Of a stretch of 21,278 nt of DNA, positions 73 to 18,923 are shown piece after piece. The notes beneath the pieces were generated by a model that had not been told where the DNA came from, did not search any database, and saw only the letters and a list, made by a program, of their open reading frames with translations. Source of the stretch: a virus; the IMG/VR virus record IMGVR_UViG_3300010430_003367, positions 1 to 21,278 of that record. One strand, given 5' to 3'. Both the position numbers and the translations under genes were made by a program. The first letter of the stretch is position 1. Every line of letters starts with the position of its first letter.

Positions 73-222
73 ATGGAGCGGGCAACGTATTTTTTATTGC
101 TCACAGCGGCATCGTTTGCATTTGCGTGTCTTGGTGAAAACACGATCGGGCGAGCAGCGTGCGTGTTTGCTGGCGTGATAGACGCCGGTTTTTTTATTGA
201 GGAAATCAAAAAGCGACACTAG
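73..222 (+). CDS. Small two-helix membrane peptide (49 aa)
   Basis: An ATG opens 49 codons to TAG. An AAGGG site lies six bases upstream. The peptide has two hydrophobic stretches, roughly residues 6-20 (YFLLLTAASFAFACL) and 27-42 (GRAACVFAGVIDAGFFI), joined by a short polar turn, and ends in a charged tail (EEIKKRH). This is the shape of a small inner-membrane hairpin protein. Class II holins and superinfection-exclusion peptides look like this, but nothing in the sequence points to one function. It precedes the ATPase gene and is separated from it by a hairpin-rich leader. I do not recognise a family. The 72 bases before it hold only a 15-codon open frame and an AT-rich box. Confidence 0.5.
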   Translation: MERATYFLLLTAASFAFACLGENTIGRAACVFAGVIDAGFFIEEIKKRH

Positions 223-426
223 GCGTGCAAACTTCTCAAAAGTTTTTTGCACGTTTCCCTCGTGTTTTTGCACATCTGTTGCACAAATCTTTAAAAAACT
301 TAAAAAAGCTTGAAAAAGCCCTTGTGCAATCTGCACCGCTCGACGATAACTATACCTGTGACGAGCGAGTCACGACCGCAACCAAGCGGAAACAATTTAC
401 CACCATCGCACAGAGGATTCTTAATC
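223..426 (+). promoter_or_regulatory. Hairpin- and GTGCA-rich leader of the AAA+ gene
   Basis: A 204-base non-coding stretch. CGTGCAAA (224-231) pairs perfectly with TTTGCACG (246-253), and an inner ACTT/AAGT extends the stem. TTGCAC or GTGCAA recurs at about 225, 247, 268, 280 and 323. A weak sigma-70-like arrangement is TTGCAC (268-273), 17 bases, TTAAAA (291-296); the -35 match is poor. The 3' part (341-426) shares CGACGATAACTA, TTTACCACCATC and CAGAGGA-T with the leader at 1827-1893. The AGAGGA at 412-417 serves the ATG at 427. A promoter or regulatory leader is likely but unproven. Confidence 0.45.
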
Positions 427-1713
427 ATGCCAGTTTCAAACCCTTCAAACTACTTTGTTTCTTCAGTACCAGAAAACGCTCGCACTCGAACAGCGTTTCG
501 CTCGTCAACCTGCATTTGTTGTGGCACCGCAATAGTTGCGGGAGATCATACGATCAAGCAGGTTAAAACGACAAACTCAAGCACAGGTGCGGTAAAAACA
601 AAATGGGTGCACGAGACTTGTGCAGACGCTTTTGACTTTGGCAAGACTGAACCAACACCAGCAGTTGCACCAGTTGAACCAGTAGCAGTTGAACCAGCAC
701 CAGTTGTGAAAGAGCAACCTGCCGACACTGACCAAGCGTTGCAATTGTTGTCACAGTTGCTTGCACCTAAGCAGCAAACGATTGACCTTGAAGCACTAAA
801 CGAAAACGTCAAGTCAATGGTTGCATCGGCAACGATGGCGTCTTGCGACTTGCTGATTGAGAAGTGCAACGAGCTTGAAAAGACTGTTGCCGAAATGCAA
901 CCTAAGATTATCAAAATCAAAGTTGGCGAGCGTAAAGAGGTTGCTTTGCCAAAGGGCGAAATCGTACACCCGATTTTCAAAGATGCACTGACGCTTGCGG
1001 AAGCTCGCAAAAACATTATGTTTGTCGGCCCAACTGGTTCTGGTAAAACGCATCTTGCCGGTCAGATTGCAGATGCACTCGAATTGAAGTTTCGATTCAT
1101 CTCTTGCAGCGGCGGAATGAGTGAGGGTCAATTGCTTGGTCGTTTGCTTCCAGTCGGTGAGGGCGGGTCTTTCGAGTATGTGCAAAGCGACTTTGTTGAT
1201 TGCTACGAGAACGGCGGCGTTTTTGCTTTCGATGAATTTGATGCAGCAGACGCAAACGTGCTGCTTGTCGTCAACGCTGCACTTGCAAACGGTCGCCTTG
1301 CCCTTCCAAATCGCACTGACAAACCAGTTGCAGAGAAGCACAAAGATTTCATTTGTGTTGCTTGTGCAAACACGTTCGGCACTGGTGCAGACCGTAAGTA
1401 CGTCGGACGATCACGACTTGATGAAGCAACGATTGAACGCTTTCGAATCGGAACGCTTTTCATGGATTACGATGCTGAACTTGAAAAGACGCTTTGCCCT
1501 TGTGAGAAGCTTCGCACAGAGCTTTCAAAGTTTCGCACGGCAGTTGTTGACCAGCGAGTTGAGCGAGTCGTTAGCACACGATTCATGCGTGACGCTTACG
1601 AAATGCAGCAAATGGGTTGGAAACAAGCACAGATCAACGAGGCATTGTTTTCAGGTTGGAAAGCAAGCGAGGTTGATCTTGTAAAGAACTACGCAAGAGA
1701 CTTGTCAGCGTAA
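427..1713 (+). CDS. MoxR/CobS-like AAA+ ATPase with N-terminal zinc finger
   Basis: A predicted ATP-driven remodelling protein of 428 residues. Residues 29-65 form a Cys-x2-Cys ... His-x2-Cys zinc-finger pattern (C29, C32, H62, C65). A Pro/Val/Glu-rich linker follows (about 75-98, built from short imperfect repeats), then a helical stretch (about 100-160) and the AAA+ core: Walker A GPTGSGKT at 201-208, Walker B VFAFDEFDAAD at 265-275, sensor-1 Asn in CANTFG near 315 and a LDEATIERFRI segment near 331 typical of the MoxR/CobS/CbbQ branch. I chose the ATG at 427 because AGAGGA sits before it and the same leader precedes two more genes; the frame is open upstream to 310. MoxR-type ATPases usually work with a VWA-domain partner, and the next gene looks like one. 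The substrate is unknown. Confidence 0.85.
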   Translation: MPVSNPSNYFVSSVPENARTRTAFRSSTCICCGTAIVAGDHTIKQVKTTNSSTGAVKTKWVHETCADAFDFGKTEPTPAVAPVEPVAVEPAPVVKEQPADTDQALQLLSQLLAPKQQTIDLEALNENVKSMVASATMASCDLLIEKCNELEKTVAEMQPKIIKIKVGERKEVALPKGEIVHPIFKDALTLAEARKNIMFVGPTGSGKTHLAGQIADALELKFRFISCSGGMSEGQLLGRLLPVGEGGSFEYVQSDFVDCYENGGVFAFDEFDAADANVLLVVNAALANGRLALPNRTDKPVAEKHKDFICVACANTFGTGADRKYVGRSRLDEATIERFRIGTLFMDYDAELEKTLCPCEKLRTELSKFRTAVVDQRVERVVSTRFMRDAYEMQQMGWKQAQINEALFSGWKASEVDLVKNYARDLSA

Positions 1714-1893
1714 GCGGTTTTGATTTCGAGTGGTGCGTGCTGCAAAGGGCAGCATGCTCACCCGCAATCTGAATCAGAAAAAAGATTTAAATAAGTCTAA
1801 AAAAGACTTTACAAACAAAGGGTTTTCGACGATAACTAGAGAAGTGCAAAACGCACGCAACGATTTACCACCATCAAATACAGAGGAATCAAA
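1714..1893 (+). promoter_or_regulatory. Intergenic leader with two hairpins, second copy of shared leader
   Basis: No gene fits here. GCGTGCTGC (1735-1743) pairs with GCAGCATGC (1749-1757) around an AAAGG loop with one G-U pair. AAGTC ... GACTT (about 1793-1809) flanks an A-rich loop. TTTAAATAAGT at 1786-1796 repeats the box at 40-50. GCTCACCCGCAA at 1756-1767 recurs with one change at 2907-2918. The 3' part (1827-1893) matches the leader at 341-426, including CGACGATAACTA, TTTACCACCATC and CAGAGGAATC before the ATG at 1894. The role could be promoter, attenuator or both. Confidence 0.45.
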
Positions 1894-2859
1894 ATGAAAG
1901 TCACAGCAGAACAACCAAGCAAGGGCAAAGCAATCGTCAACGGTTTAAGCATGCGAACCGTGCAACCTATTGAAGACGGCGGCAAAGATTTTGATGTGAT
2001 TATTTCTCGCTTTGCATCGATCACAGAGTATTACGAACGCATTGAAGCAAACATTGACCATCGAGTTGAGGACCGAATTCACGCAAGTTTCACTGCGAGC
2101 TTTTTGGGGCGAAACGATATCAGGTCACTTGCTGACGTTGGCGAGTTGCGAAGCAAAAAAGACGAAAAACTCTTGAGAACGATTGACAGAAAAATCGAGG
2201 AACTTGACAGCGAGTTGCCTGACCCGACAGAAATTAAACGCTCGCGAACCTTTGATGAATTCGATGGTGATGAGGTTGACTACGACCGATTGAGAAGCGG
2301 TCAAGAGTTTTGGCACGCAAGCGAGAAACGCGAAACAACAGGCGTGCAAAACGTTATTATCAACATCCAGCAGAACGCGAGCGGCATGACTGATTCGAAA
2401 TCAATCGCAGACCGCTGTGCAACTGCAATTGCTCTTGCAAAAAAGCTTGAGTCAGCAGGCTATGGCGTTGAGGTCAATGTTTTCAATTACAATACAAACG
2501 TTTTTGACGGACTGAGGCAAGGGTCCAACAACCGCTTGTTGACGATCATACCTGCAAAGACATTTGATCAAGGGCTTGACATTGTTGGTCTTGCAAACTT
2601 GACTGCACCTTGGATGTTTCGCACCTACACTTTCGCAGACCGTGCAATAACTGGTTTGATGTTTGGTGGTCAAGCAGGTTACGGAATGGGCAGCACGGTT
2701 GAGATTGATTCGTTTGCGATTGAGCAGATTGAAAATGGAATCGACACGAGCACAACAAAAGTGATTAACTTTGGCAAGTTGTGCTTGAATAGCTCAACCG
2801 CACTCAATGTTGCAAGGTTGGCGATTGCTTCGCTTGAGACGCAGCACGAGTTTGCTTAA
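1894..2859 (+). CDS. VWA-like partner of the AAA+ ATPase (degenerate MIDAS)
   Basis: A 321-residue protein, probably the partner of the upstream ATPase. Residues 153-198 read like the first strand, MIDAS turn and first helix of a von Willebrand A domain: VIINIQQNASGMTDSKS, then an Ala/Lys-rich helix and GYGVEVNVF. In a functional MIDAS the strand ends in DxSxS. Here the Asp position is Gln/Asn and the run is QNASG, so metal binding is probably lost or altered. The N-terminal half (1-145) is charged and helical, with FDEFDGDEVDYDRLRSG near 120-137. The start is fixed by CAGAGGAATCAAA just before the ATG. The pairing of a MoxR ATPase with a VWA protein is established for cellular homologues; its use in this phage is inference. 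The fold call rests on pattern only. Confidence 0.5.
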   Translation: MKVTAEQPSKGKAIVNGLSMRTVQPIEDGGKDFDVIISRFASITEYYERIEANIDHRVEDRIHASFTASFLGRNDIRSLADVGELRSKKDEKLLRTIDRKIEELDSELPDPTEIKRSRTFDEFDGDEVDYDRLRSGQEFWHASEKRETTGVQNVIINIQQNASGMTDSKSIADRCATAIALAKKLESAGYGVEVNVFNYNTNVFDGLRQGSNNRLLTIIPAKTFDQGLDIVGLANLTAPWMFRTYTFADRAITGLMFGGQAGYGMGSTVEIDSFAIEQIENGIDTSTTKVINFGKLCLNSSTALNVARLAIASLETQHEFA

Positions 2860-2976
2860 AGGCTTGCACGGTTTCGCGTGCAACGTGCACTGCACAAGCG
2901 GTGCACGCTCACCTGCAACCAGCAGTCAGAGACGCAACAATGTACCACTTTTACAACTCAAAGCAGAGGAATCAAA
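2860..2976 (+). promoter_or_regulatory. Leader with mutually exclusive hairpins
   Basis: Just after the stop of the VWA-like gene, TTGCACG (2864-2870) pairs with CGTGCAA (2877-2883) around GTTTCG. The overlapping segment GCGTGCA (2876-2882) can instead pair with TGCACGC (2902-2908). Both stems are perfect 7-mers and cannot form together. GCTCACCTGCAA (2907-2918) repeats the element at 1756-1767. AGAGGAATCAAA (2965-2976) leads directly into the ATG at 2977 and is the same as before 1894. It could act as an attenuator, but no clear U-tract follows either stem. Confidence 0.4.
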
Positions 2977-3492
2977 ATGAAATTCAATTCAAGCAAAGCT
3001 CACAAGGCAATTGAAGCATTCTCGAAAGGACGAAGCGAAATACTTGAGCAGGTGACGGCGTCAGGTAAATCAATGCGTGACGTTATCATCAACGTTGTCA
3101 ACGCAATGAATGAAACATACAAGAATGCGTGCAAAGACATTACAGCGGCGAGCAAGGTTGATGACGTTGACATGCTATTGATTGACCATGATTCAGGCAT
3201 GCAAAGCAACCTGTTGACAGAGGTGATGTTCGAAACGTCAGTTGGTTACCTTGTGCAATCAATCTTTGCAATCAAATTGAACTACGCGACAAGCGATGAA
3301 CCTTTTGAGCTTAACGACACTGATATTGCGTTTGCACGAAAGTTGTTTATCAGCTTTATGGCAAGCCAATCGTTTAGATTGAAACCTGAGTTTGATGAAT
3401 TCAGGCGAATTGCAGAGGCGCAGGAGCGTGCAGAGATAAAACAAAACACGCGAAGGAATTGCGGCAATGGTGGTAATCCAAGCGAGAACTAA
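2977..3492 (+). CDS. Unknown 171-residue protein, third gene of the AAA+/VWA-like block
   Basis: The ATG at 2977 follows the same AGAGGAATCAAA leader as the VWA-like gene, so I prefer it to in-frame starts further upstream from 2878. The protein is mostly helical by appearance: a Lys/Ser-rich start (MKFNSSKAHKAIEAFSKG), a segment with acidic patches (KVDDVDMLLIDHDSG, about 60-74), a more hydrophobic stretch (about 88-103, SVGYLVQSIFAIKLNY) and a charged, low-complexity tail ending CGNGGNPSEN. I see no catalytic motif, signal peptide or membrane helix. Its leader and position suggest it is co-regulated with the ATPase and VWA-like protein. It could be an adaptor or substrate of that pair, but this is inference. 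Confidence 0.65.
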   Translation: MKFNSSKAHKAIEAFSKGRSEILEQVTASGKSMRDVIINVVNAMNETYKNACKDITAASKVDDVDMLLIDHDSGMQSNLLTEVMFETSVGYLVQSIFAIKLNYATSDEPFELNDTDIAFARKLFISFMASQSFRLKPEFDEFRRIAEAQERAEIKQNTRRNCGNGGNPSEN

Positions 3493-3571: not shown

Positions 3572-3609
3572 AGACCTGTGCATGTGCAAACGTGTGCAGG
3601 TCTTTTTTT
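3572..3609 (+). terminator. Rho-independent terminator with GCAA tetraloop
   Basis: AGACCTG (3572-3578) pairs with CAGGTCT (3597-3603). The stem continues inward for seven more pairs, including three G-U wobbles, to a GCAA tetraloop. Seven Ts follow (3603-3609). It lies 80 bases after the stop at 3492, so it probably ends transcription of the AAA+/VWA-like block before the packaging genes. Confidence 0.85.
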
Positions 3610-3771: not shown

Positions 3772-4428
3772 ATGGCAGTCAAACAGCAAATCACAGACAC
3801 GGTGCGAGTTAATCACGCACAAACTCTTTTAAAGATCATCGCAGGTAAAAAGCCTACACGCGAGGAAGAAAAAGACTTTAACGCAGTTGAGCGGCAACGC
3901 AGGCTTGAGGTTATACGCGAATACGTTGAAAACGTTCCACTGACTGACCTGCAAGACTGGTTTGGGCATGGCACGCCTAGACGTATGCAGGTCAATCAAC
4001 TCAATGACATTCACAACAAATACGGGTTGCCGGTAAGCAAGTCGCCTGTTTCATTGCCGAAAGTCTTTCAGGCGCTTCGCACGCTTCTAAAACGCAACTC
4101 CAAGGTTATCAACGCAGCAGGCGACGACGATGACGAAAAGCCTGCAATCTTGAAAAAGAAAGAGGCAAAGCTTGACAGCGAAATTGAGCGTTTGCAACAG
4201 CAGATTAGATCACTAGAAACACGCAACCAAAAAGAGCTTGACATCCTCGTTGACAAGTCAATTGTGTTTCATCTTTACCAGATCACGGCAGACGTTTTAA
4301 GGTCGTGCGGCGAAGACTTTGCTAGACTCGATTCTATCACTGGCAAGCAGGCGCAAGAGCGGTTAAACGGTGCAGTTGACGCGATTGAACAAAAAGTTAC
4401 TTCAACAATTGGCGAGCAGCAAGAGTGA
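3772..4428 (+). CDS. Probable terminase small subunit
   Basis: A 218-residue protein that probably recognises the packaging site and hands DNA to the large terminase. It has an N-terminal helical region, a possible winged-helix segment (about 58-100, with LQDWFGHGTPRRMQVN and VSLPKVFQAL), an acidic linker (GDDDDEKP near 117-124) and a Lys/Glu/Gln coiled coil (about 128-165) that would support oligomerisation. This order resembles Nu1-type small subunits of phages that use GpA large subunits. The strongest evidence is context: the stop overlaps the GTG of the large subunit (GTGA at 4425-4428). I favour the ATG at 3772; an in-frame TTG at 3751 would add seven residues, and neither start has a clear ribosome site. 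Confidence 0.6.
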   Translation: MAVKQQITDTVRVNHAQTLLKIIAGKKPTREEEKDFNAVERQRRLEVIREYVENVPLTDLQDWFGHGTPRRMQVNQLNDIHNKYGLPVSKSPVSLPKVFQALRTLLKRNSKVINAAGDDDDEKPAILKKKEAKLDSEIERLQQQIRSLETRNQKELDILVDKSIVFHLYQITADVLRSCGEDFARLDSITGKQAQERLNGAVDAIEQKVTSTIGEQQE

Positions 4429-6596
4429 TATCACAATCAAAAAAGATTGATAACACACCAGATGCAAATGAACTATTTGCAGACTTGCATGATGAGAACG
4501 TTTGCTCTGATGAAATTGCAATCAAAGACTTTGTGCAGAAATTTTGCAAGAATGCACGCAGTGCAAAGCTTCGTTCAATCATTGAATTTGCAGAGGAAGA
4601 AATCAGACTGCCTCGCGATGGTGGACCGCACGAGGGGCAGCGATTTAAGCGCGAGCGGCAACCGTATGTAGAGTTGCTGTATAACCAATTCATGCTGCGA
4701 AAGTATGCCGAGTTTATTATTTGTGGTCCATCGCAATCAGGCAAAACACTTTCTGCGTTTGTTGTAATCATTGCTTACGTAGTTGCAGAGCTTCGCACAA
4801 ACATGGTGATTGCCGTTCCAGACCTCAACATGGTTGATAACAAATGGCAAATTGACATCTTGCCGGTGTTTCGTGAATCTCCGTTGCTTGCCTCATTGTT
4901 GCCGGTCAAAGGTGTCGGGAGTCCAGAAGGCGGCAAAGTAAAAGACTCTGTCACGTTTCAGAACGGCGTAACAATTAAATTTATGACCAAGGGCGGAAGC
5001 GATCAGAGCAAGGCGGGCTTCACTGCACCAATCGTTGCAATGACAGAGGCGGCGGGATTCAGCGAGAACAATTCAGGGTCGTCAGAGTCGGACCCGTTCA
5101 GGCAGTTCAAGGCACGGCAGCGTGCAACGAAGCAATTTTTAAAAGGCGGCAAGGTAAACACAAAGCGTCAGTTTTTTGCAGAAGGAACTTGCACAAATGA
5201 AGATGAATTGCCGTGGCGTGCACGTATCGGTTCAACAAAATCGCGAATCGTTTGTCAATGCAAGGATTGCAAAGAATGGGTGACGCCAGAAAGAGAACAC
5301 CTTGTTGGATGGCAAGAGGCAAGCGACCAGTTTGAAGCAGTTGAAAATGCTGTTTTTATCTGCCCTTCGTGCGCGTGCGTGATCGACGAGGATGCACGCG
5401 AAAAAATGAACAGTGGCATGCGGTTGCTGCATGACGGTCAAGAGATTGATGCGAAAGGAAACGTCAAAGGCAAAGAGGCACGCAGCGCACGTTTATGGTT
5501 CAGGTGGAATGCGTTTAACAACTTGTTTCAATCAATCGGCGACATTGCGTCAGAGGAATGGAGCAACGCACAGATTGACGAAGATGACCCTGACAGATTG
5601 AATGGCGAAAAAGACTTGATGCAAAGCGTTTGGGCGACACCATACGTGCCGCCAAGTGATGCAACGCGACCTCTCGACAAATCATTGATTGCAGTTCGAA
5701 CAGGATCAAAAGAGAATCTGAAAAAGAATGAGATACCAGCAGATACAAAACATCTTGCAATTGGTGTTGATATCGGCAGGTGGAAGTGCTGGTATTTTGC
5801 AATTGCATTTCAACACGACCGCATGCACGTTCCTTTTTATGGAAGCTGGAACACGTCACTGACAAAAGGCGGCATGGTTGAAAAGAAGCATGAGCGAGTA
5901 GCGATTGTAGATTGCTTGATTGAGATGACGCAGTTTTTCGAAAGCTTTACTCGCAAGCCTGACGCAGTTTGGATTGACTCAGGGTATATGCCTGACGCAG
6001 TGTTTGAGGCGTGCAGGCGAACAGGCAGCGGCATGCGAAACAGATACAAGCCGATAATCGGACGAGGGAAAACGACGCGAGACAAAAGGAAATATTCGAA
6101 ACCATCACGCATTGGAAACGAGGTCAGGCGAGCAGGTAACGGTTGGCACTTGAGCTACGTGCCGACCCGCAAAGGATGGCAGGCAACGGTCGATGTTGAT
6201 ACACAAAAATTCAACGTGCAACGAGCACTGCGAAACATTGAAGGTCAGGCGGGTGCACTTACTCTTTTTGATGCACCACCGCACGAGCACAAACAGGTGT
6301 CAGCACATCTTGCGTCAGAGTTTTTTAAGAGATGGCAAGAACCAGACGGTAGTTGGAAAGAGGAATGGTTTCAAACAGGTCACAACCACCTGCTAGATTG
6401 TGCCGCTTATGCGATGGGCGCAGGCGATTTTCTAGGGTGGTCAATACCTGCCGACGCATACGGCGAAACCAACAGCGAAACGTTACATGAACATAACAGC
6501 GGAGTGCAGGGAAACGCACAACAAAACGCCAGCAGCGTCCCGAAAAACCTTTTCTTGGCAAGGCTACAAAATGCAAAAAGTTCATCTGCCCGATAG
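4425..6596 (+). CDS. terL: Terminase large subunit, GpA family
   Basis: The 723-residue packaging ATPase and nuclease that pumps DNA into the prohead. Walker A is GPSQSGKT at 101-108. The Walker B position reads PIVAMTEAAG (202-211), where the usual Asp before Glu is Thr. A zinc-ribbon insert typical of GpA proteins has C277, C279, C282 and C313, C316, C318. The nuclease half begins at AIGVDIGRWKCWYF (D449), with WIDSGYMPDAV (D518) and HNHLLDCAAYAMGAG (about 653-667) near the end, as in GpA. Length is slightly above the family norm because of about 60 charged N-terminal residues. The GTG start overlaps the previous stop by four bases, which suggests coupled translation. The last 26 bases overlap the next gene. 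Confidence 0.93.
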   Translation: MISQSKKIDNTPDANELFADLHDENVCSDEIAIKDFVQKFCKNARSAKLRSIIEFAEEEIRLPRDGGPHEGQRFKRERQPYVELLYNQFMLRKYAEFIICGPSQSGKTLSAFVVIIAYVVAELRTNMVIAVPDLNMVDNKWQIDILPVFRESPLLASLLPVKGVGSPEGGKVKDSVTFQNGVTIKFMTKGGSDQSKAGFTAPIVAMTEAAGFSENNSGSSESDPFRQFKARQRATKQFLKGGKVNTKRQFFAEGTCTNEDELPWRARIGSTKSRIVCQCKDCKEWVTPEREHLVGWQEASDQFEAVENAVFICPSCACVIDEDAREKMNSGMRLLHDGQEIDAKGNVKGKEARSARLWFRWNAFNNLFQSIGDIASEEWSNAQIDEDDPDRLNGEKDLMQSVWATPYVPPSDATRPLDKSLIAVRTGSKENLKKNEIPADTKHLAIGVDIGRWKCWYFAIAFQHDRMHVPFYGSWNTSLTKGGMVEKKHERVAIVDCLIEMTQFFESFTRKPDAVWIDSGYMPDAVFEACRRTGSGMRNRYKPIIGRGKTTRDKRKYSKPSRIGNEVRRAGNGWHLSYVPTRKGWQATVDVDTQKFNVQRALRNIEGQAGALTLFDAPPHEHKQVSAHLASEFFKRWQEPDGSWKEEWFQTGHNHLLDCAAYAMGAGDFLGWSIPADAYGETNSETLHEHNSGVQGNAQQNASSVPKNLFLARLQNAKSSSAR

Positions 6597-7266: not shown

Positions 7267-8907
7267 TTGATTAACACGATTAAAAAATTTGCAAAGACAA
7301 TCGGCATGCTTGGACGCGCCAAGAGCGTCAAGGATGGCGCGACCGATTACACTGACGCAAGGGTTGATCATCGTGCACAACTTGAACAAGAGTTCAATCA
7401 ACCGCATGCCATTCGACGTTGGGATGCAACCTACACTGACAGGTTAAACGAAGCTCATTGGGCAGGCGTGAACGGAAGCGGCGGGTATTACATGCACGTA
7501 AACGCTGACCTTGAATCGCACATTGAGAATCTAACTGCACGCTGCATTCACGAGTTTATGACAAACCCTGAAGTTGAGGGAATGGTCAAATCGTATGGCA
7601 AGGATTTGTTTGGTAAAACAGGTCCAACGCTGAACATCAATTCAACAGATGAAGAATTCAACATTGCAGCAAAAAAGGTTTGGCGCAAGTGGTGGAAGAA
7701 TCCAACGGTTTCAAACGATATTTGCGGCAGAGAGTTGTTATCTCGTTGGAATATTTCGTTATGGACAAAAGGTTCGATTCTCGCGCAGGTCGTGCCTGAC
7801 TCGCAAACCGAATCAGCAGTCAAGTTGAAACTGCTTGACCTTGACCCAAGACGCCTGCAAACTCCACCGAAACTTGTTGGTGATCAGGCAACAGTGCTTG
7901 GAACAACGTTCACAAAAATGGGTGCGCCTCGAACGAAATGGGTGCGTGACATCCGCAACGTCGTGACTCCGCATTTGTCGATGGACTTTCGATACGAAGA
8001 CATTCCGGCAGACCAGATGATTCACGCCTACGAATCAATCGAGGCAGGGCAGGCGACTGGCATACCGTGGCTTGCTTCTATGCTTCAAGACTTTGCAGAC
8101 CTGAGAGACTTTGACAAGCAAGTGCTCGATGCAGCAAGAGCGGCAGCAGATAGTGCAGTTCTTTTGCAGACAAAGCAACCTGAATTGATAAGTGATGCAC
8201 GACCGCTTTCAATGTCGGAAACGTTTACGTTTCAGCGGCGGCAGATTAAGGCGATTCCGGCAGGCTACGAAGCGAACCAAATGAAGGCCGAACAACCGAC
8301 AAACAATTACGTTGAATTTCGGCATGAGCGCTTGAGATCGATCGGGCGTGCACGGCATATTCCACTTTTGATCATGCTGTTAAGTGCAGAGAATTCAAAC
8401 TTCAGTCAGTCACGCATGGACGTAAACGTGATTTACGAGCGAGGGTTAGACGAAATACGCAGTTGGTGGGAAAACGCAGTTTTGACAAAGCTTGCACGAA
8501 TCGTTTTGAACGATGCACGCATGGACTTGCCGCCGTTCCCTGAAGACTTTGAAGTTACTTGGGGATGGACCCCAATGAAGCAGGCAGACGAAGCAAAATC
8601 AGAGAAGGCAAAAGAAGCTCGCTTGCGACGTGGGATCGACACATACGAGGAACAGCTTGCAGAGGAAGGCAAGGACCTCGAAACGCAAGTTGCTGCACGT
8701 CAAAGAATCAATGAGTTGCTAGAGTCATCAGGGCTTGAGCCTATACCGTCATTCGATTCACCAGTTGAAGCGGTTGAGGAACCAGAAGAAAGCACGCTTG
8801 CAAAGGAAAAGAAAAGCGACAAGCCAGAAACCGCAAAACGATCAACTGAAGAATTGATCGAAGCGGCAATCCGTGACGTGCTTGATGGAGTTGAGAGCAA
8901 TGCCTAG
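7267..8907 (+). CDS. Portal protein, lambda type
   Basis: A 546-residue protein expected to form the dodecameric ring at the capsid vertex through which DNA passes. The family pattern is clear: an early helical region with ESHIENLTARCIHEFMTNP (83-101), GLY/LYS-rich GKDLFGKTGPTLNI (111-124), the strand-rich middle KLLDLDPRRLQTP (188-200), the diagnostic IEAGQATGIPWLASMLQDFADL (258-279, read from AYESIEAGQATGIPWLA) and a following helix rich in Ala (AARAAADSAVLL). The last 75 residues are charged and Glu/Lys-rich. The start is TTG at 7267, eight bases after the previous stop; the next in-frame ATG is at 7306. A TTG start with good ribosome site is also used at 15110. The final eight bases overlap the protease-capsid gene. 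Confidence 0.9.
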   Translation: MINTIKKFAKTIGMLGRAKSVKDGATDYTDARVDHRAQLEQEFNQPHAIRRWDATYTDRLNEAHWAGVNGSGGYYMHVNADLESHIENLTARCIHEFMTNPEVEGMVKSYGKDLFGKTGPTLNINSTDEEFNIAAKKVWRKWWKNPTVSNDICGRELLSRWNISLWTKGSILAQVVPDSQTESAVKLKLLDLDPRRLQTPPKLVGDQATVLGTTFTKMGAPRTKWVRDIRNVVTPHLSMDFRYEDIPADQMIHAYESIEAGQATGIPWLASMLQDFADLRDFDKQVLDAARAAADSAVLLQTKQPELISDARPLSMSETFTFQRRQIKAIPAGYEANQMKAEQPTNNYVEFRHERLRSIGRARHIPLLIMLLSAENSNFSQSRMDVNVIYERGLDEIRSWWENAVLTKLARIVLNDARMDLPPFPEDFEVTWGWTPMKQADEAKSEKAKEARLRRGIDTYEEQLAEEGKDLETQVAARQRINELLESSGLEPIPSFDSPVEAVEEPEESTLAKEKKSDKPETAKRSTEELIEAAIRDVLDGVESNA

Positions 8908-11320
8908 CAAACGCAAACGTGCAAAACAAAAACAAAAGTCAGCAATTGAAATGGTTGTTGAAAATGTTCGCAGTCTAGCAACGGTGAGCAGTGAAAATGA
9001 AATTGACTTCAATGTGCGTAAGGATGCAGAGTTTGTCTCGACTTTCAATGAGTCAGACCGCTCAATCGAAATCATTCTTGCAACTGAAACACCGACAATG
9101 GTTTTCGATGCAGAAAAGAGAACCGTTGTTGACGAGGTCTTGCTTGCAGATGGTATGCAAGCCGTTGACGAGATACCGTTGCTCGACAACCATAATCGAT
9201 TCGACAATGACGCTGTTTTTGGATTGATTAAAAGCATCCGTGCAACGAATGGCGAGATACGTGCACGCATTTATTTTGCAGACATGCAACGCTTTCTCGA
9301 AAAGCACCCAAGCGACGAAGCTGCACTAAAGCTTGAAAGAACAGTTGAGAAGGTTCGGCAAGGTGTCTTGAAAGGCATCAGTGCAGGCTATCGCATTAAC
9401 GAACGAACATACATTCCGGCCGGTCAATCACGAACCGTTGCAGGAAAAAAATACACCGCTCGCGCTAACGTAGGCATGAGCATTGTTACTAATTGGATTC
9501 CGCGAGAAGGCAGCATCACGCCGGTACAGGCGGATAGGTTTTCAAAAACTCGCAGCGAAAGAAATGGAGCAAACGAAATGCCAGTAAAACTACGCAAGAA
9601 ATTGCAAGAGTTGGGCTTGCGTGCTGACGCGACTGAGGCGGAAGCATGGTCACACTATCACGGATTGAACGAATCACAACGCAGTGAGCTTTCTGACCTC
9701 ACAGACGGCGTCACGATTCCTGAACAGCAAAGCGAAAGCGGCGAACGCGCTGCAAGCGATGTTGCGTCAGAAACGGCAGCAGAGATTGCCGACGCAGTGC
9801 GAGCGGCACTAAATGGCGAAACAACCGACGAGAATGCTGCATCAGAGGCTTCGAGCGTTTCTGACGCTGTGCGAGCAGCAATTGACGCAGAGCGATCACA
9901 AGAGCGCCAGAGAGTCGCAAACATCAACAATCTGTTTGGTGATTCTGAACCAGAATTGCGAAACCGTGCGATTGCGGAAGGTTGGGATTATCAGCGGGCA
10001 AGCAGCGAGCTTGTTCCGCGATTGCGACAACTTTACCGTGCACCGCTTTCAGGCGACGTAGGCGGAAGTGCAGCAAGCTCAAACCTTGCGATTCACTCAC
10101 GAGGTGCTGACGACGTAAACGAGGAAGTGATTTCTGCCGCATTGATGCTACGTTCTGGCGTCAATGTTGAGCACCGATTCTTCGAAGATCGAGACTTGAC
10201 AGATAACCGCATCACTGCGCGAAGCTTGTGCGGTTCGATCAACTCTGACGATCGGCAGCGAACGCTTGAGCGTGCAAACAACATTCGCAGAATGTCAATC
10301 GTTGATATGTGTTCGACGATTATGCGTTTGCGAGGCATCAACGATTTTGACCCGCACGACGCTGAAAGCATTGTGCACCGTGCGTTGTCATCTGGAACGG
10401 TTACGAACATTTTCACAAGCGATGTTTCTGCACGCTTGATGACCTCGTATCTAGACGCAGCTGATACGACGCTTGGTTGGACGATGGAGGAAGAAGTTTC
10501 GAACTTCAAGACCAACGAACGCATCGGCATGGGCAAATTTGAAGGCTTGAAAAAGCATGCTCGCGGCGGTACGGCGGAAGACGATTACATGACTGACGAA
10601 AAGGAGGAGTACAAAATTGCACGGTACTCTGACAAGTACGTCATTGATGAGCAAGACATGATCGACGACGACATCAACGGGTTGAATTCGATCACACCGT
10701 CAGACATGGGAATGGCAGCGGCACAGTTGCGACCTGACCTTGTTTACGCTTTATTGCATGCGAATGCAAACATGCGTGATGGCACTGCACTGTTTCATGC
10801 AGATCACGGCAACCTTCGTTCAGGTGGTTCAACTGCTTTGTCGATTGCTTCGCTAGAAACTGGTGAAGTGGCTTTTGGTAAGCAGCGAATCGGCACACGT
10901 CCTTTGAACTTACGTGCACGATATTTGATTGTGCCTCGTGAATTGAAGTGGAAAGCAGCACAGATCATGGCGAGCGCAGAACGTCGTGAGAGTGCAGCAG
11001 CAGACGGCATCGCAAACCCAATCTCAGGCGAAGATATTTCAATTCGCTATGACGATCGAATGGGTGCGGTTGGTGTTGTCGATCCTGACACTGGAACCAC
11101 TCAAACCGGAACAGCAACTAACTGGTTGATGACGGCAAGCCCAGGCGAATCCGGTGCACGCACTGTTGTTGTTGGTTATAGACGTGGCACAGGTCGCGCC
11201 CCAACGGTTCGGTCATTTGTCCTTACTCAAGGTCAATGGGGAATCGGTTATGACATCAAGCACGACATCGGTGTCAAGGCACTTGATTGGCGTGCAATGC
11301 AGTGGAACGCCGGAGCCTAA
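8900..11320 (+). CDS. Prohead protease-scaffold-major capsid fusion
   Basis: An 806-residue fusion. Residues 30-215 match HK97-type prohead proteases (clan SH): the catalytic His in LLDNHNR (H98) and the Ser in GISAGYR (S161). Residues 227-370 are charged, Ala/Glu/Gln-rich and probably act as an internal scaffold; DAVRAA occurs twice (298-303, 322-327). Residues 370-806 form the coat, with Mu gpT-like features: DGTALFHADHGNL (627-639), LIVPRELKWKAAQ (676-688) and a hydrophobic strand-rich end. After assembly the protease should cut itself out. The ATG at 8900 has GGAG nine bases upstream. An in-frame internal ATG (9578) has its own ribosome site. The gene overlaps the portal by eight bases. 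Confidence 0.88.
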   Translation: MPSKRKRAKQKQKSAIEMVVENVRSLATVSSENEIDFNVRKDAEFVSTFNESDRSIEIILATETPTMVFDAEKRTVVDEVLLADGMQAVDEIPLLDNHNRFDNDAVFGLIKSIRATNGEIRARIYFADMQRFLEKHPSDEAALKLERTVEKVRQGVLKGISAGYRINERTYIPAGQSRTVAGKKYTARANVGMSIVTNWIPREGSITPVQADRFSKTRSERNGANEMPVKLRKKLQELGLRADATEAEAWSHYHGLNESQRSELSDLTDGVTIPEQQSESGERAASDVASETAAEIADAVRAALNGETTDENAASEASSVSDAVRAAIDAERSQERQRVANINNLFGDSEPELRNRAIAEGWDYQRASSELVPRLRQLYRAPLSGDVGGSAASSNLAIHSRGADDVNEEVISAALMLRSGVNVEHRFFEDRDLTDNRITARSLCGSINSDDRQRTLERANNIRRMSIVDMCSTIMRLRGINDFDPHDAESIVHRALSSGTVTNIFTSDVSARLMTSYLDAADTTLGWTMEEEVSNFKTNERIGMGKFEGLKKHARGGTAEDDYMTDEKEEYKIARYSDKYVIDEQDMIDDDINGLNSITPSDMGMAAAQLRPDLVYALLHANANMRDGTALFHADHGNLRSGGSTALSIASLETGEVAFGKQRIGTRPLNLRARYLIVPRELKWKAAQIMASAERRESAAADGIANPISGEDISIRYDDRMGAVGVVDPDTGTTQTGTATNWLMTASPGESGARTVVVGYRRGTGRAPTVRSFVLTQGQWGIGYDIKHDIGVKALDWRAMQWNAGA
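9566..9580 (+). promoter_or_regulatory. Internal ribosome site and start within the protease-capsid gene
   Basis: GGAG (9566-9569) is followed after eight bases by ATG (9578-9580), in frame at codon 227, just after the protease domain and at the start of the scaffold segment (MPVKLRKKLQELGL). It would give a 580-residue scaffold-capsid protein without the protease, so that capsid subunits outnumber protease subunits. Nested starts of this kind are known for lambda C/Nu3. Confidence 0.5.
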
Positions 11321-15437: not shown

Positions 15438-18400
15438 GTGCTTTGTCGCAAACTTCGTCGCAGTCTCAATCAACCAATTCCAAAGAGGATAAAAGACCTC
15501 AATTTGCGCAATAGGGTGTTTGCTGCAATCTCTGCAAGCATGAATGACAAGGGGTTTAATCACTCACACGCAGACGCATTTGCAGCATGGTATTTCAATC
15601 GCAATGCCTCGCTATCTGGTGTGATCGAAGACGAAACGCCAAGCCGGAAAGACCGCACCGAATTGGCGACGACGGGAAGCGTTTTCGACGGGACGAACTA
15701 CTTCGAAAAAACGGATATCGCAAACAGTGTTCTAGGGGCGAATGACACATCGTTTACGGCCCGCGTGCGGTTCAGCGGCAACGGATCGTCGGGTGACGGT
15801 GATTACATTTTTGCATCTTATGATGGCACGCCAGACGAGGGTTTTCGATTCTCGGTCACTAGCGGATTTCTCACGTTTTCGATCAAAGACCGAGCATTTG
15901 CTGGGCTGTCGGCTGTCTCAACAGTAACGACCGCCGATATCCAAGCGGGCGGAATCTACGAGGTGGTTGGCGTTTACGATGCAGTCGCGGAAACGATTTC
16001 GATATATGTAAATGCAGTTTTTCACGACGACAATGTTGCTACTACTTACGCGGCACCAACGCAAAACATCGTGCGTATTGCCAATCGATCGGATGCGACA
16101 ACCGGAGCGTGGTTCGGCAACATTTACGAAGCCCAAATCTGGAACGACCAAGCCTTAACCGCCGCCGAAATCGTCAAACTTTGGGATAAGGAAATCAGCT
16201 ATTTCCAAGGCGATAAAGCCCCGTCGGTTGCGTGGCTACTTGATGGCCCAACGTGTACCGATTTGATCGCCGACAATGATTTATCACCGGTTGCCGATCC
16301 AGCGGCATACGTCGGATCAGAGGGCAGCACTTGGCTCAATGATCAAGGGTGGAATGCAACCGTTTACGAATCCGATTTTTCAGAAGGTTTCGACGGTTGG
16401 ACTGTAACTTCTCCTTCTATAAGAGACGTTCTTGATTTTGAAGGGCAAACAAATGTAATTCGGTATACAGGAGGCGATGAGGGGGCAGGAACTGCATCAA
16501 GTGAACGGCTACAAAACAATGCTAAATGGGGAAAAATAGTTGACGGCGAAACGTATACGCTCAAATTTGATATTTATATTCCAAGCTCGAATACGAATTT
16601 AGATTCGATCAAGTTTTCATCGTCAATTCTTGGTGCAGGTGCTACGTACATCCCAACGCCTGATACATGGGAAACATTTACGCTCGAAGGTCAAATTGCC
16701 ACCGTCTCAAATAACTACATTCGTTTCTATGCGGCTGATAATGGCTCTGTCAATTCAATTACCGCAGGCGACGTTTTTTATCTAGCAAACATCGAAGTCA
16801 TTGCAGAAGAAAGCATTTTTCCGAAACGATGGAACGCCGACCTGAATTCCAATGGCTTCGCAGGCGACGCCAATTCCTTCGGCCCAGTGAAGCGGAACCG
16901 TGAGTACCGCAACGGGCCATCGATTGATCTGGACGGTGTTGACCAACATATCAGTCTTGAAACTACAAGCCTTCTTGGAAGCGATTCGTTCACGCTTATT
17001 TTTGGTTTGTCACCCGATACAAGTCCGATCGGATCGGACGATAGGATATTTGGCAATACGACGTCTCCTACTACAGCCGGTCTTCTTGTTACACACAAGG
17101 CAAACCGTTTGCGGATCATAACCGAGGGGGCAGATCAGACGTACACCGATGACGGGGTAATGACTACCGGGGCTGCCCATCGTATCACGGTTCGAGTGAA
17201 CCGGACAACAAACACGACTTCATTTTTCGTTGATGGTGTTGAGCAAGCGTTGGCAACCGCCGATATTGATTGGTCCTTAATTGGGACGTTAGACACCGCT
17301 AGTAACTATGTTATCGGGGCCGAAACTAAGGGAGAGACTACAGCTAATTTCGATGGTAAAGTTTGGGATTTCCGGTATTACAATTCCGCACTTTCTGACG
17401 CTGAAATTTTAGCGGATGCTACGACCGGAACCAGCGAAACCACACCGACGCGGCATTACCCGATAAGTGAAGAAGTGGGCACGGAAATTCAATGCGTAAT
17501 TACAGGAGAGATTGCTGAAACCCAAAACGATCCAACGTGGGATTTCACGGTAAACGATTCGTTTTTCCACGGCGAGACGGTCGGTTATTCAGCAGTTCCG
17601 ATTTTCGTTGAACCAGTTGAATTGGTTTCTAGCACTAACGTCAATTTCGACGGCGTAAAGAATTGCACAATCGAGCTTGATTTTTTCTATTCAGTATCCG
17701 GCACGCAGGAGTTTTTTTGCGTAAGTTCCGTCGCACCGATTCGAATCCGAACGTCGGGTTCGACTATTCAGGTATTTGTCCGTGACTCAGCAAACGTAGC
17801 GGCGTCAACTGGCTTGCTGGTTTTGACGGTGGGTGAATTATATCGATTAAAAATCGTGATAACGGAGCACGCCACCGATCCAGAAAACCTCAGTTCAATT
17901 GTTATTACAGATCGTTTGACGGGTGAAGTATTGGCGTCTGCGACGGATGTTAATGTAGCTATGTCGTCCGCCTCGTCTAACGTCGGGAATCCGCAAATTG
18001 GTATTTACGCCAATGCGACAAATCCGTTTCTAGGTGATATGTACCGCGTCCGAATGTGGACGGACGATACATTGCAAGTTTCGGTCGATTTTCCGTCATT
18101 TGCTAATGCCGGTGCTGCTTCCGATTTCACCGAATCAGGCGGAACACTTGAAATAAAAAAGATTCCCGCTGTTTCGAAATCACTCGACGCGAACGGGTAT
18201 CCAACTAACAGACCCGCAGGCCCGTACCACAACCGCACCGCAGCAGAAGTCACCGAAACGCCGATTGCGAATTCGGATAGCGTGAACCCGATTTATTACA
18301 GTTCGGAAAACGACGGTCTTGGTTCAATTTCGCTTGATTCAACCATTACTTTGAGCGGGCCGTTTGAAATTTATTACGAAGTCTACTCCGATAATTTCGA

Positions 18401-18923
18401 TCAGTTAGGAATGATTTTAGGGCACGAAACGACAGATCAAAAAATTGGATTTACAAACACAGCGTCGGGTTTTGTTTTCTTTCGTTTAATAAATGCGGGC
18501 AGTTCAGATCAAACTATCGAGAAACCTTCTGCTGACGCATGGCACACTTTTAAGTTGATGCGAGATTCGGCTGATATTTGCAGCGTAATTATTGATGGAA
18601 CGACTTATCCATTGTTTGGCGGTGCTGCCCAAACCGGAAATCTGGTTTTAAACAGAGTCTATCGTGTTTCGGACGGGCAAAGATTTGACGGTCGATTGAA
18701 AAATTTGAAAATTATCGATGATGGAACAACGGTGCTAGATATGCCGCTCTACAAGGATTCACTTGACCGTTCGCCAAGCTGTAACCACGGAATAATTGCC
18801 GAGGCGGGCGTTTCGTTCCTTAGCAACGCGATGGAAACGGACCTCAACCCCGACATCGCCGAATCAGAAACACGATCCGTGACAAGCGGCGACCGCAAAA
18901 TAATTTCAATTGGAGCAAGATAA
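15438..18923 (+). CDS. Multi-LamG adhesin, probable receptor-binding protein
   Basis: A 1161-residue protein from GTG with GAGAGG eight bases upstream. Residues 1-60 are basic and helical, a likely virion anchor. Four LamG/concanavalin A-like sandwiches follow at about 81-250, 494-665, 728-885 and 962-1105; each shows the strand pattern with a late 'G-I-A-IWN--L--AEI' type segment (NIYEAQIWNDQALTAAEI, 228-245; KVWDFRYYNSALSDAEI, 641-657). Residues about 311-456 resemble a CBM4/9-type carbohydrate-binding sandwich (DFSEGFDGWTV to VFYLANIEVI). DLNSNGFAGD (468-477) looks like a calcium loop. It would bind host surface glycans. Codon use after about 15620 differs from the upstream genes, a sign of transfer. 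No peptidase or depolymerase motif was seen. Confidence 0.8.
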   Translation: MLCRKLRRSLNQPIPKRIKDLNLRNRVFAAISASMNDKGFNHSHADAFAAWYFNRNASLSGVIEDETPSRKDRTELATTGSVFDGTNYFEKTDIANSVLGANDTSFTARVRFSGNGSSGDGDYIFASYDGTPDEGFRFSVTSGFLTFSIKDRAFAGLSAVSTVTTADIQAGGIYEVVGVYDAVAETISIYVNAVFHDDNVATTYAAPTQNIVRIANRSDATTGAWFGNIYEAQIWNDQALTAAEIVKLWDKEISYFQGDKAPSVAWLLDGPTCTDLIADNDLSPVADPAAYVGSEGSTWLNDQGWNATVYESDFSEGFDGWTVTSPSIRDVLDFEGQTNVIRYTGGDEGAGTASSERLQNNAKWGKIVDGETYTLKFDIYIPSSNTNLDSIKFSSSILGAGATYIPTPDTWETFTLEGQIATVSNNYIRFYAADNGSVNSITAGDVFYLANIEVIAEESIFPKRWNADLNSNGFAGDANSFGPVKRNREYRNGPSIDLDGVDQHISLETTSLLGSDSFTLIFGLSPDTSPIGSDDRIFGNTTSPTTAGLLVTHKANRLRIITEGADQTYTDDGVMTTGAAHRITVRVNRTTNTTSFFVDGVEQALATADIDWSLIGTLDTASNYVIGAETKGETTANFDGKVWDFRYYNSALSDAEILADATTGTSETTPTRHYPISEEVGTEIQCVITGEIAETQNDPTWDFTVNDSFFHGETVGYSAVPIFVEPVELVSSTNVNFDGVKNCTIELDFFYSVSGTQEFFCVSSVAPIRIRTSGSTIQVFVRDSANVAASTGLLVLTVGELYRLKIVITEHATDPENLSSIVITDRLTGEVLASATDVNVAMSSASSNVGNPQIGIYANATNPFLGDMYRVRMWTDDTLQVSVDFPSFANAGAASDFTESGGTLEIKKIPAVSKSLDANGYPTNRPAGPYHNRTAAEVTETPIANSDSVNPIYYSSENDGLGSISLDSTITLSGPFEIYYEVYSDNFDQLGMILGHETTDQKIGFTNTASGFVFFRLINAGSSDQTIEKPSADAWHTFKLMRDSADICSVIIDGTTYPLFGGAAQTGNLVLNRVYRVSDGQRFDGRLKNLKIIDDGTTVLDMPLYKDSLDRSPSCNHGIIAEAGVSFLSNAMETDLNPDIAESETRSVTSGDRKIISIGAR

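Follow-up and report, generated by a model that had tools for sequence, protein, structure and literature searches.

What function might be served by a MoxR-like ATPase and a VWA-like protein that are encoded side by side in a phage? This question is raised by the IMG/VR record IMGVR_UViG_3300010430_003367, whose entire length of 21,278 bases was analysed and is termed the window. The three open reading frames (ORFs) that a sequence-only reading had reported in it are all present, at 427-1713, 1894-2859 and 2977-3492. By analogy with known complexes, our analysis suggests that the products of the first two probably form a phage remodelling machine of the MoxR-VWA type, which would be coupled by a finger rather than by the metal of a metal ion-dependent adhesion site (MIDAS) and whose genes in most cases lie apart from the structural operon. 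The features underlying this proposal are:

427 to 1713, plus strand: MoxR/CobS-like AAA+ ATPase P0001, 428 amino acids, phrog_249 (Pfam, PHROG and profile searches)
511 to 621, plus strand: zinc-finger-like motif C29-x2-C32 ... W-x-H62-x2-C65 at the N-terminus of the ATPase (sequence)
1027 to 1050, plus strand: Walker A motif GPTGSGKT, residues 201-208 (alignment)
1138 to 1173, plus strand: putative helix-2-insert segment GRLLPVGEGGSF, similar to the GRxLL/I motif found in this insert of NorQ (sequence; motif from PMC13036017)
1231 to 1236, plus strand: Walker B Asp-Glu pair, D269-E270 (alignment)
1894 to 2859, plus strand: DUF7192 protein P0002, 321 amino acids, predicted VWA domain of the MoxR-partner type without MIDAS (Pfam, AlphaFold2, structure and profile comparison)
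2224 to 2337, plus strand: segment preceding strand 1, residues 111-148, GDEVD...G...W...K, at the position of the NorD finger (model, profile alignment, conservation)
2368 to 2382, plus strand: degenerate MIDAS motif, with residues 159-163 reading QQNAS instead of DxSxS (alignment of homologues)

The identity of the first gene is well defined. P0001 matches the Pfam family AAA_5 (PF07728) at 3.9e-17 and 63 bits, compared to a cut-off of 22, and it is assigned by score to phrog_249 (8.7e-50), a family labelled 'porphyrin biosynthesis'. The protein carries the Walker A, Walker B, sensor 1 and arginine residues of MoxR/AAA_5 proteins, with a sensor-1 Asn, ERF and STR as further motifs, in line with its earlier description as an ATPase with Walker A/B and MoxR/CobS features. 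Among 90 loci picked by an ATPase profile, the window counted, Walker A is found by pattern in 89 and Walker B in 88 members of the family. The best solved relatives of the family profile are midasin, CobS, CbbQ and NorQ, which places P0001 in the MoxR/dynein-like group, and in a sequence alignment its GRLLP occupies the position of the GRxLL/I insert motif of NorQ. The zinc finger that had been noted as an unusual addition is present as a zinc-finger-like CxxC...WVHETC motif. A motif of the CxxC...WxHExC type is found in 11 of the 90 phage ATPases, P0001 included, most of them its nearest relatives, and it thus marks a sub-branch.

The association of this ATPase with the second gene extends far beyond the window. 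An ORF matching the DUF7192 profile is found on the same strand in 87 of the 87 loci with room for it, whereas in the remaining three (L016, L018 and L083) the contig ends inside the ATPase gene. In 61 loci it is located directly downstream, at a distance of -30 to +60 bases. A reverse search with a DUF7192 sub-profile gave an ATPase for 30 of 30 further locus identifiers, several of which are on contigs already counted, and adjacent or close to the ATPase, a Pfam-confirmed DUF7192 gene is present in all isolate lineages tested, namely Mycobacterium LeBron, Listeria LP-110, Tunturi_4, Rhizobium P106B and X2_24, Staphylococcus Stab23, Acinetobacter Bestia, Enterococcus CECAV_04 and the crAss-like Aurodevirus. 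Phages that carry the pair infect Staphylococcus, Listeria, Enterococcus, Mycobacterium, Acinetobacter, Rhizobium and Tunturiibacter or belong to the crAss-like group; the arrangement of the pair varies, with an inverted gene order in CECAV_04, an opposite-strand gene between the two genes in Bestia and a gap of 4 kb in L022. The commonest neighbour family besides DUF7192 occurs in 16 of the 90 loci. The distance matrices of both proteins are correlated with r 0.92 (0.83 without close pairs; 0 of 500 permutations), a value that in part reflects shared ancestry. The conserved phage module consists of two genes, ATPase and DUF7192, whose homologues do occur together, and the pair, which had appeared as a peculiarity of one phage, is widespread. 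Constant pairing and correlated divergence identify the phage ATPase as the natural partner of the DUF7192 protein. With respect to the searches themselves, a single DUF7192 protein retrieved nothing from IMG/VR, where the ATPase profile succeeded, an alignment of 11 DUF7192 sequences was too divergent for use as a search profile, and two scans of genome contigs gave no confirmed relative, which carries little weight because confirmation was by single-sequence tblastn.

Several observations concern individual members and their relatives on plasmids. An apparent ATPase-DUF7192 fusion (L119:5416-6408) was rejected, since about 240 bases missing relative to L054 join shortened copies of the two genes, and it probably reflects faulty assembly or a broken copy. 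Two crAss-like genes annotated as 'transcriptional regulator' (L002:6776-7687 and L003:6759-7670) encode DUF7192 proteins; in the former, the annotated frame contains four standard-code stop codons and the deposited end seems to assume recoding. In conjugative plasmids (pCAR1, IncHI2-type and others), a long VWA gene adjoins DUF3150 (compare L091:3818-7956), with a MoxR-like ATPase in pCAR1 also beside these two genes. The plasmid VWA protein matches 2,300 plasmid records, and a plasmid search with one DUF7192 query gave no match.

What kind of protein accompanies the ATPase? P0002 belongs to the Pfam family DUF7192 (PF23822; 1.3e-10, 41.5 bits, gathering cut-off 27) and by score to phrog_1909. 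No functional description of DUF7192, phrog_1909 or phrog_249 was found in the libraries used beyond the label of the latter, and no paper mentioning DUF7192 was found in the literature searched. An AlphaFold2 model, calculated from a 60-row alignment of window and IMG/VR sequences, is VWA-like (pLDDT 86.8, pTM 0.84), as had been anticipated from the pattern of strand and helix. In a Foldseek comparison with the PDB, the only matches below 1e-3 are NorD VWA chains of the NorQD complex, with 9qh6_G at the top (E 2.0e-5, prob 1.00). VIA-align gives the highest Z for Rea1-MIDAS (10.3) and NorD (9.9), compared with 6-7 for integrin and VWF domains, and among viral models DUF7192 proteins come first, followed by phage CobT/VWFA proteins. 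A single profile-profile comparison of DUF7192 with CobT/NorD-like VWA proteins of plasmids and phages (E 1.6e-6, prob 80%) pairs GDELD with the GKRID segment preceding the VWA domain, and strand 1 of DUF7192 with the strand carrying DxSxS. A PDB sequence search with the DUF7192 profile returned a weak match to CobT (E 0.19), next to short matches to Cas14/Cas12f that are regarded as chance. A VWA fold of P0002 is supported by the predicted structure and by sequence, and the homology of DUF7192 to the VWA partners of MoxR proteins appears likely.

If P0002 is a VWA protein, it is one that lacks the metal site. Its QQNAS motif aligns in register with DNSGS of CobT and DKSGS of the plasmid VWA protein, and the first Asp of the MIDAS is replaced by Gln159. 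The altered MIDAS described earlier is thus present, but it is no oddity of one phage: in 81 distinct DUF7192 homologues, the triad D-x-S/T-x-S/T is intact in none, with Asp at the first position in 33, Asn in 35 and Gln in 3, and its loss is therefore a trait of the family, as judged from the DxSxS triad, since the Thr and the second Asp of the MIDAS were not located with certainty. The consequences can be viewed in light of NorD, where NorQ still co-purifies with MIDAS mutants while the target enzyme is not activated (PMC9976466). By analogy, DUF7192 would be able to act as partner of a ring and unlikely to grip a target in the manner of a MIDAS.

A second feature concerns the region preceding strand 1. 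In NorD, a finger formed by residues 403-448 of the VWA domain enters the NorQ pore and touches the helix-2 inserts there; remodelling depends on this finger (PMC13036017). At this position, the model of P0002 contains a strand (119-121), a short helix (130-134) and a second strand (140-142), and the segment 111-148 aligns with GKRIDTGRI of the plasmid VWA protein. Conservation in the finger region amounts to 2.13 bits per column, compared to 2.29 in helix 1 and 1.3-1.6 in other regions, and the most conserved columns include R116, G125, D129, G136 and W140. We infer that the coupling element has been kept while the adhesion site was lost.

These features can be combined into a mechanism that is modelled on related systems. 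The ATPase would assemble into a hexameric ring, as is typical for the MoxR family, with the DUF7192 protein, as suggested by its predicted fold and gene linkage, serving as its VWA adaptor. The finger-like hairpin before strand 1 would most likely insert into the pore and plug the ring, where it may be held by the helix-2 inserts as in NorQ-NorD. ATP cycling could then twist or pull the adaptor together with its cargo, in a process resembling that of NorQD. Since the MIDAS triad is lost across the family, a metal bridge to an acidic residue of the target is unlikely, and the target would probably be bound by another surface of the VWA domain or by the N-terminal region. Since the genes of the machine mostly lie outside the structural operon, we consider, with moderate confidence, that it would work on a complex of the host or of replication, during the early or middle phase of infection, rather than in the virion.

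Several points weigh against this interpretation. The TM-scores of the Foldseek matches to NorD are low (around 0.2) and the VIA-align superpositions show root-mean-square deviations of 5-7 Å, so that only the VWA core and the pre-VWA segment are safely comparable. The identity of the finger is based on its position, its secondary structure, a weak motif match and the structural hit, and the idea that DUF7192 would have retained the C-terminal contact of NorD was dropped, as this region is not conserved. The correlated divergence owes part of its strength to common descent, and the genomic placement varies, with the genes of Rhizobium P106B and of the window adjoining structural genes. The broader proposal, that DUF7192 defines a phage-wide class of MoxR-VWA systems which has lost its MIDAS grip and kept its pore finger, transmitting force via a metal-independent surface, has in our view about even prospects.

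The position next to structural genes also speaks for the likeliest alternative, according to which the pair would be a chaperone of virion assembly, assisting the folding or remodelling of head or tail proteins at a late stage of infection. The pair of the window is located just upstream of terminase, portal and capsid genes, that of P106B has tail genes on one side and head-morphogenesis genes on the other and is encoded on the opposite strand, and there is precedent in the p618/p892 pair in tail assembly of the Acidianus two-tailed virus ATV (named in PMC7824862) and in a proposal for MoxR-vWA proteins of jumbo-phage group 2.2 (PMC7824862), with viral MoxR-vWA precedent also named in PMC7911831. 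However, the 24 loci that fall into two terminase clusters have the terminase on the opposite strand, 3-7 kb upstream of the pair and divergent from it, and in Aurodevirus the pair is found among replication genes, which together favour a non-structural role. Moreover, phages with different terminase families carry the pair, no structural family travels with it, and its copy in the window is set apart from the structural genes by a terminator-like hairpin (3572-3603). We thus regard a role in virion assembly as unlikely, albeit worth bearing in mind.

Still less probable is a function in superinfection exclusion or counter-defence, where the machine would remodel a defence complex of host or phage. 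MoxR-VWA pairs are reported from conflict systems (PMC7159879), and the module occurs in many phage lineages, in several of them within gene-dense early regions. Yet PADLOC gives weak matches at the level of the P-loop for the ATPase and none for its partner, and the near-fixed linkage without a variable effector differs from typical conflict systems.

The label of phrog_249 points to an auxiliary cobaltochelatase, in which the pair would recruit host CobN and boost cobalamin synthesis, a role also suggested for viral cobST pairs (PMC8651126). The nearest cellular relatives of the ATPase include CobS; CobT, a weak relative of the partner protein, shares the pre-VWA motif and the VWA fold. However, P0001 scores 30.6 bits in the CobS equivalog TIGR01650, far below its cut-off of 558.55, none of the 81 DUF7192 proteins retains the MIDAS triad seen in CobT, and no CobN was found in 38 phage records, which may be incomplete and whose hosts could supply the protein. 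The C-terminal domain of CobT (PF11775) has no match in the window, whereas control genomes did match. Low CobS score, MIDAS loss and absence of CobN disfavour a cofactor role, which we consider very improbable. Equally improbable is a decoy that poisons MoxR-VWA machines of the host, since although a protein that has lost its MIDAS and kept its finger could make a dominant-negative plug, DUF7192 is accompanied by an ATPase of its own wherever the locus has room, and the two diverge in a correlated manner.

The proposed remodelling machine finds its closest counterpart in NorQ/NorD of nitric oxide reductase (PDB 9qh6, 9qhd), which likewise combines an AAA+ protein with a VWA partner and appears to share the putative pre-VWA finger segment and a GRxLL-like motif at the place of the helix-2 insert. 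In contrast to DUF7192, which lacks the triad and a conserved C-terminus, NorD keeps a DxSxS-T-D MIDAS, an extra N-terminal domain with linker and a functional C-terminal contact. Rea1/midasin, whose MIDAS domain gives the highest VIA-align Z for P0002 and which is the best PDB sequence match of the ATPase profile, has an intact MIDAS and works on pre-60S ribosomes as a single giant polypeptide. Virus-borne pairs of AAA+ and VWA proteins are also known from jumbo phages (MoxR-vWA with a metallopeptidase fusion) and archaeal viruses, but VWA proteins of this type keep the MIDAS and are larger (711 residues in Hardycor1, 563 in Thermus phage P74-26) than the MIDAS-less DUF7192 proteins of about 300 residues. 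What is new here is the assignment of DUF7192 as a VWA partner of a phage MoxR-like ATPase, devoid of a MIDAS and probably finger-bearing; to this widespread pair the window contributes one further member, whose ATPase has a zinc-finger-like motif.

If correct, this assignment would provide a function class for a large phage gene pair currently labelled 'porphyrin biosynthesis' and 'unknown'. The former annotation is probably misleading and may feed claims of viral auxiliary metabolism. Phages whose hosts differ as widely as Staphylococcus, Listeria, Mycobacterium, Rhizobium and, for crAss-like phages, gut bacteria have retained the machine, which suggests a common remodelling target. A loss of the MIDAS throughout the family would split two roles of VWA partners, the driving of the ring and the gripping of the target, in a way that becomes testable in small, genetically tractable phages.

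How does the third gene relate to this pair? The relevant features are:

169 to 189, plus strand: terminator-like hairpin before the three genes (stem of 8 pairs, then TTTTTT)
411 to 420, plus strand: ribosome-site box CAGAGGATTC of the ATPase gene (exact-match count)
1881 to 1890, plus strand: ribosome-site box CAGAGGAATC of the DUF7192 gene (exact-match count)
2964 to 2973, plus strand: ribosome-site box CAGAGGAATC of ORF3 (exact-match count)
2977 to 3492, plus strand: ORF3, encoding P0003, 171 amino acids, ATG at 2977, an orphan (family and relative searches)
3572 to 3603, plus strand: terminator-like hairpin after the three genes (stem of 14 pairs and a U tract)

P0003 has no family match, and no relatives of ORF3 were found in the 90 loci, in IMG/VR or in 50,697 phage records; its structure, predicted without an alignment, is poor (pLDDT 47). 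The sequence-only reading had envisaged this protein as an adaptor or target and had raised the recurrence of the trio in other phages, of which neither is borne out, as the pair recurs without homologues of the third gene in any of the sets searched, and no neighbour family besides DUF7192 exceeds 16 of the 90 loci. The leader which it was said to share is real: the sequence CAGAGGAWTC occurs exactly three times in the window, in each case 3-6 nucleotides before the start codon of one of the three genes, compared to a chance expectation of 0.04, and none of 100 shuffles reaches three. Co-regulation of ORF3 with the pair is plausible from these boxes, and ORF3 is probably a phage-specific accessory gene that uses the same regulatory leader. 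The number of terminator-like hairpins in the region is not above chance as judged from shuffles, and neither is the result of a promoter scan. Strong hairpins are also found in the gaps between the genes, at 1735-1769 (z -3.7) and 2860-2920 (z -2.6), and within these regions the near-repeat CTCACCYGCAAYC is located at 1757-1769 and 2908-2920, possibly as part of a shared processing or regulatory element.

An Rfam search gave no match. Downstream of the three genes, protein family searches identified a terminase gpA (4425-6596), followed by a portal of the lambda family (7267-8907) and a fusion of capsid and protease (8873-11320), which define the window as a fragment of a tailed phage. The latter is a single ORF of 815 amino acids that appears to join capsid and protease (phrog_4523, 'major head and protease protein', 2.5e-73). 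Further downstream, in the tail region, an ORF of 1,161 amino acids (15438-18923) resembles, by eye, repeated LamG/concanavalin-like domains.

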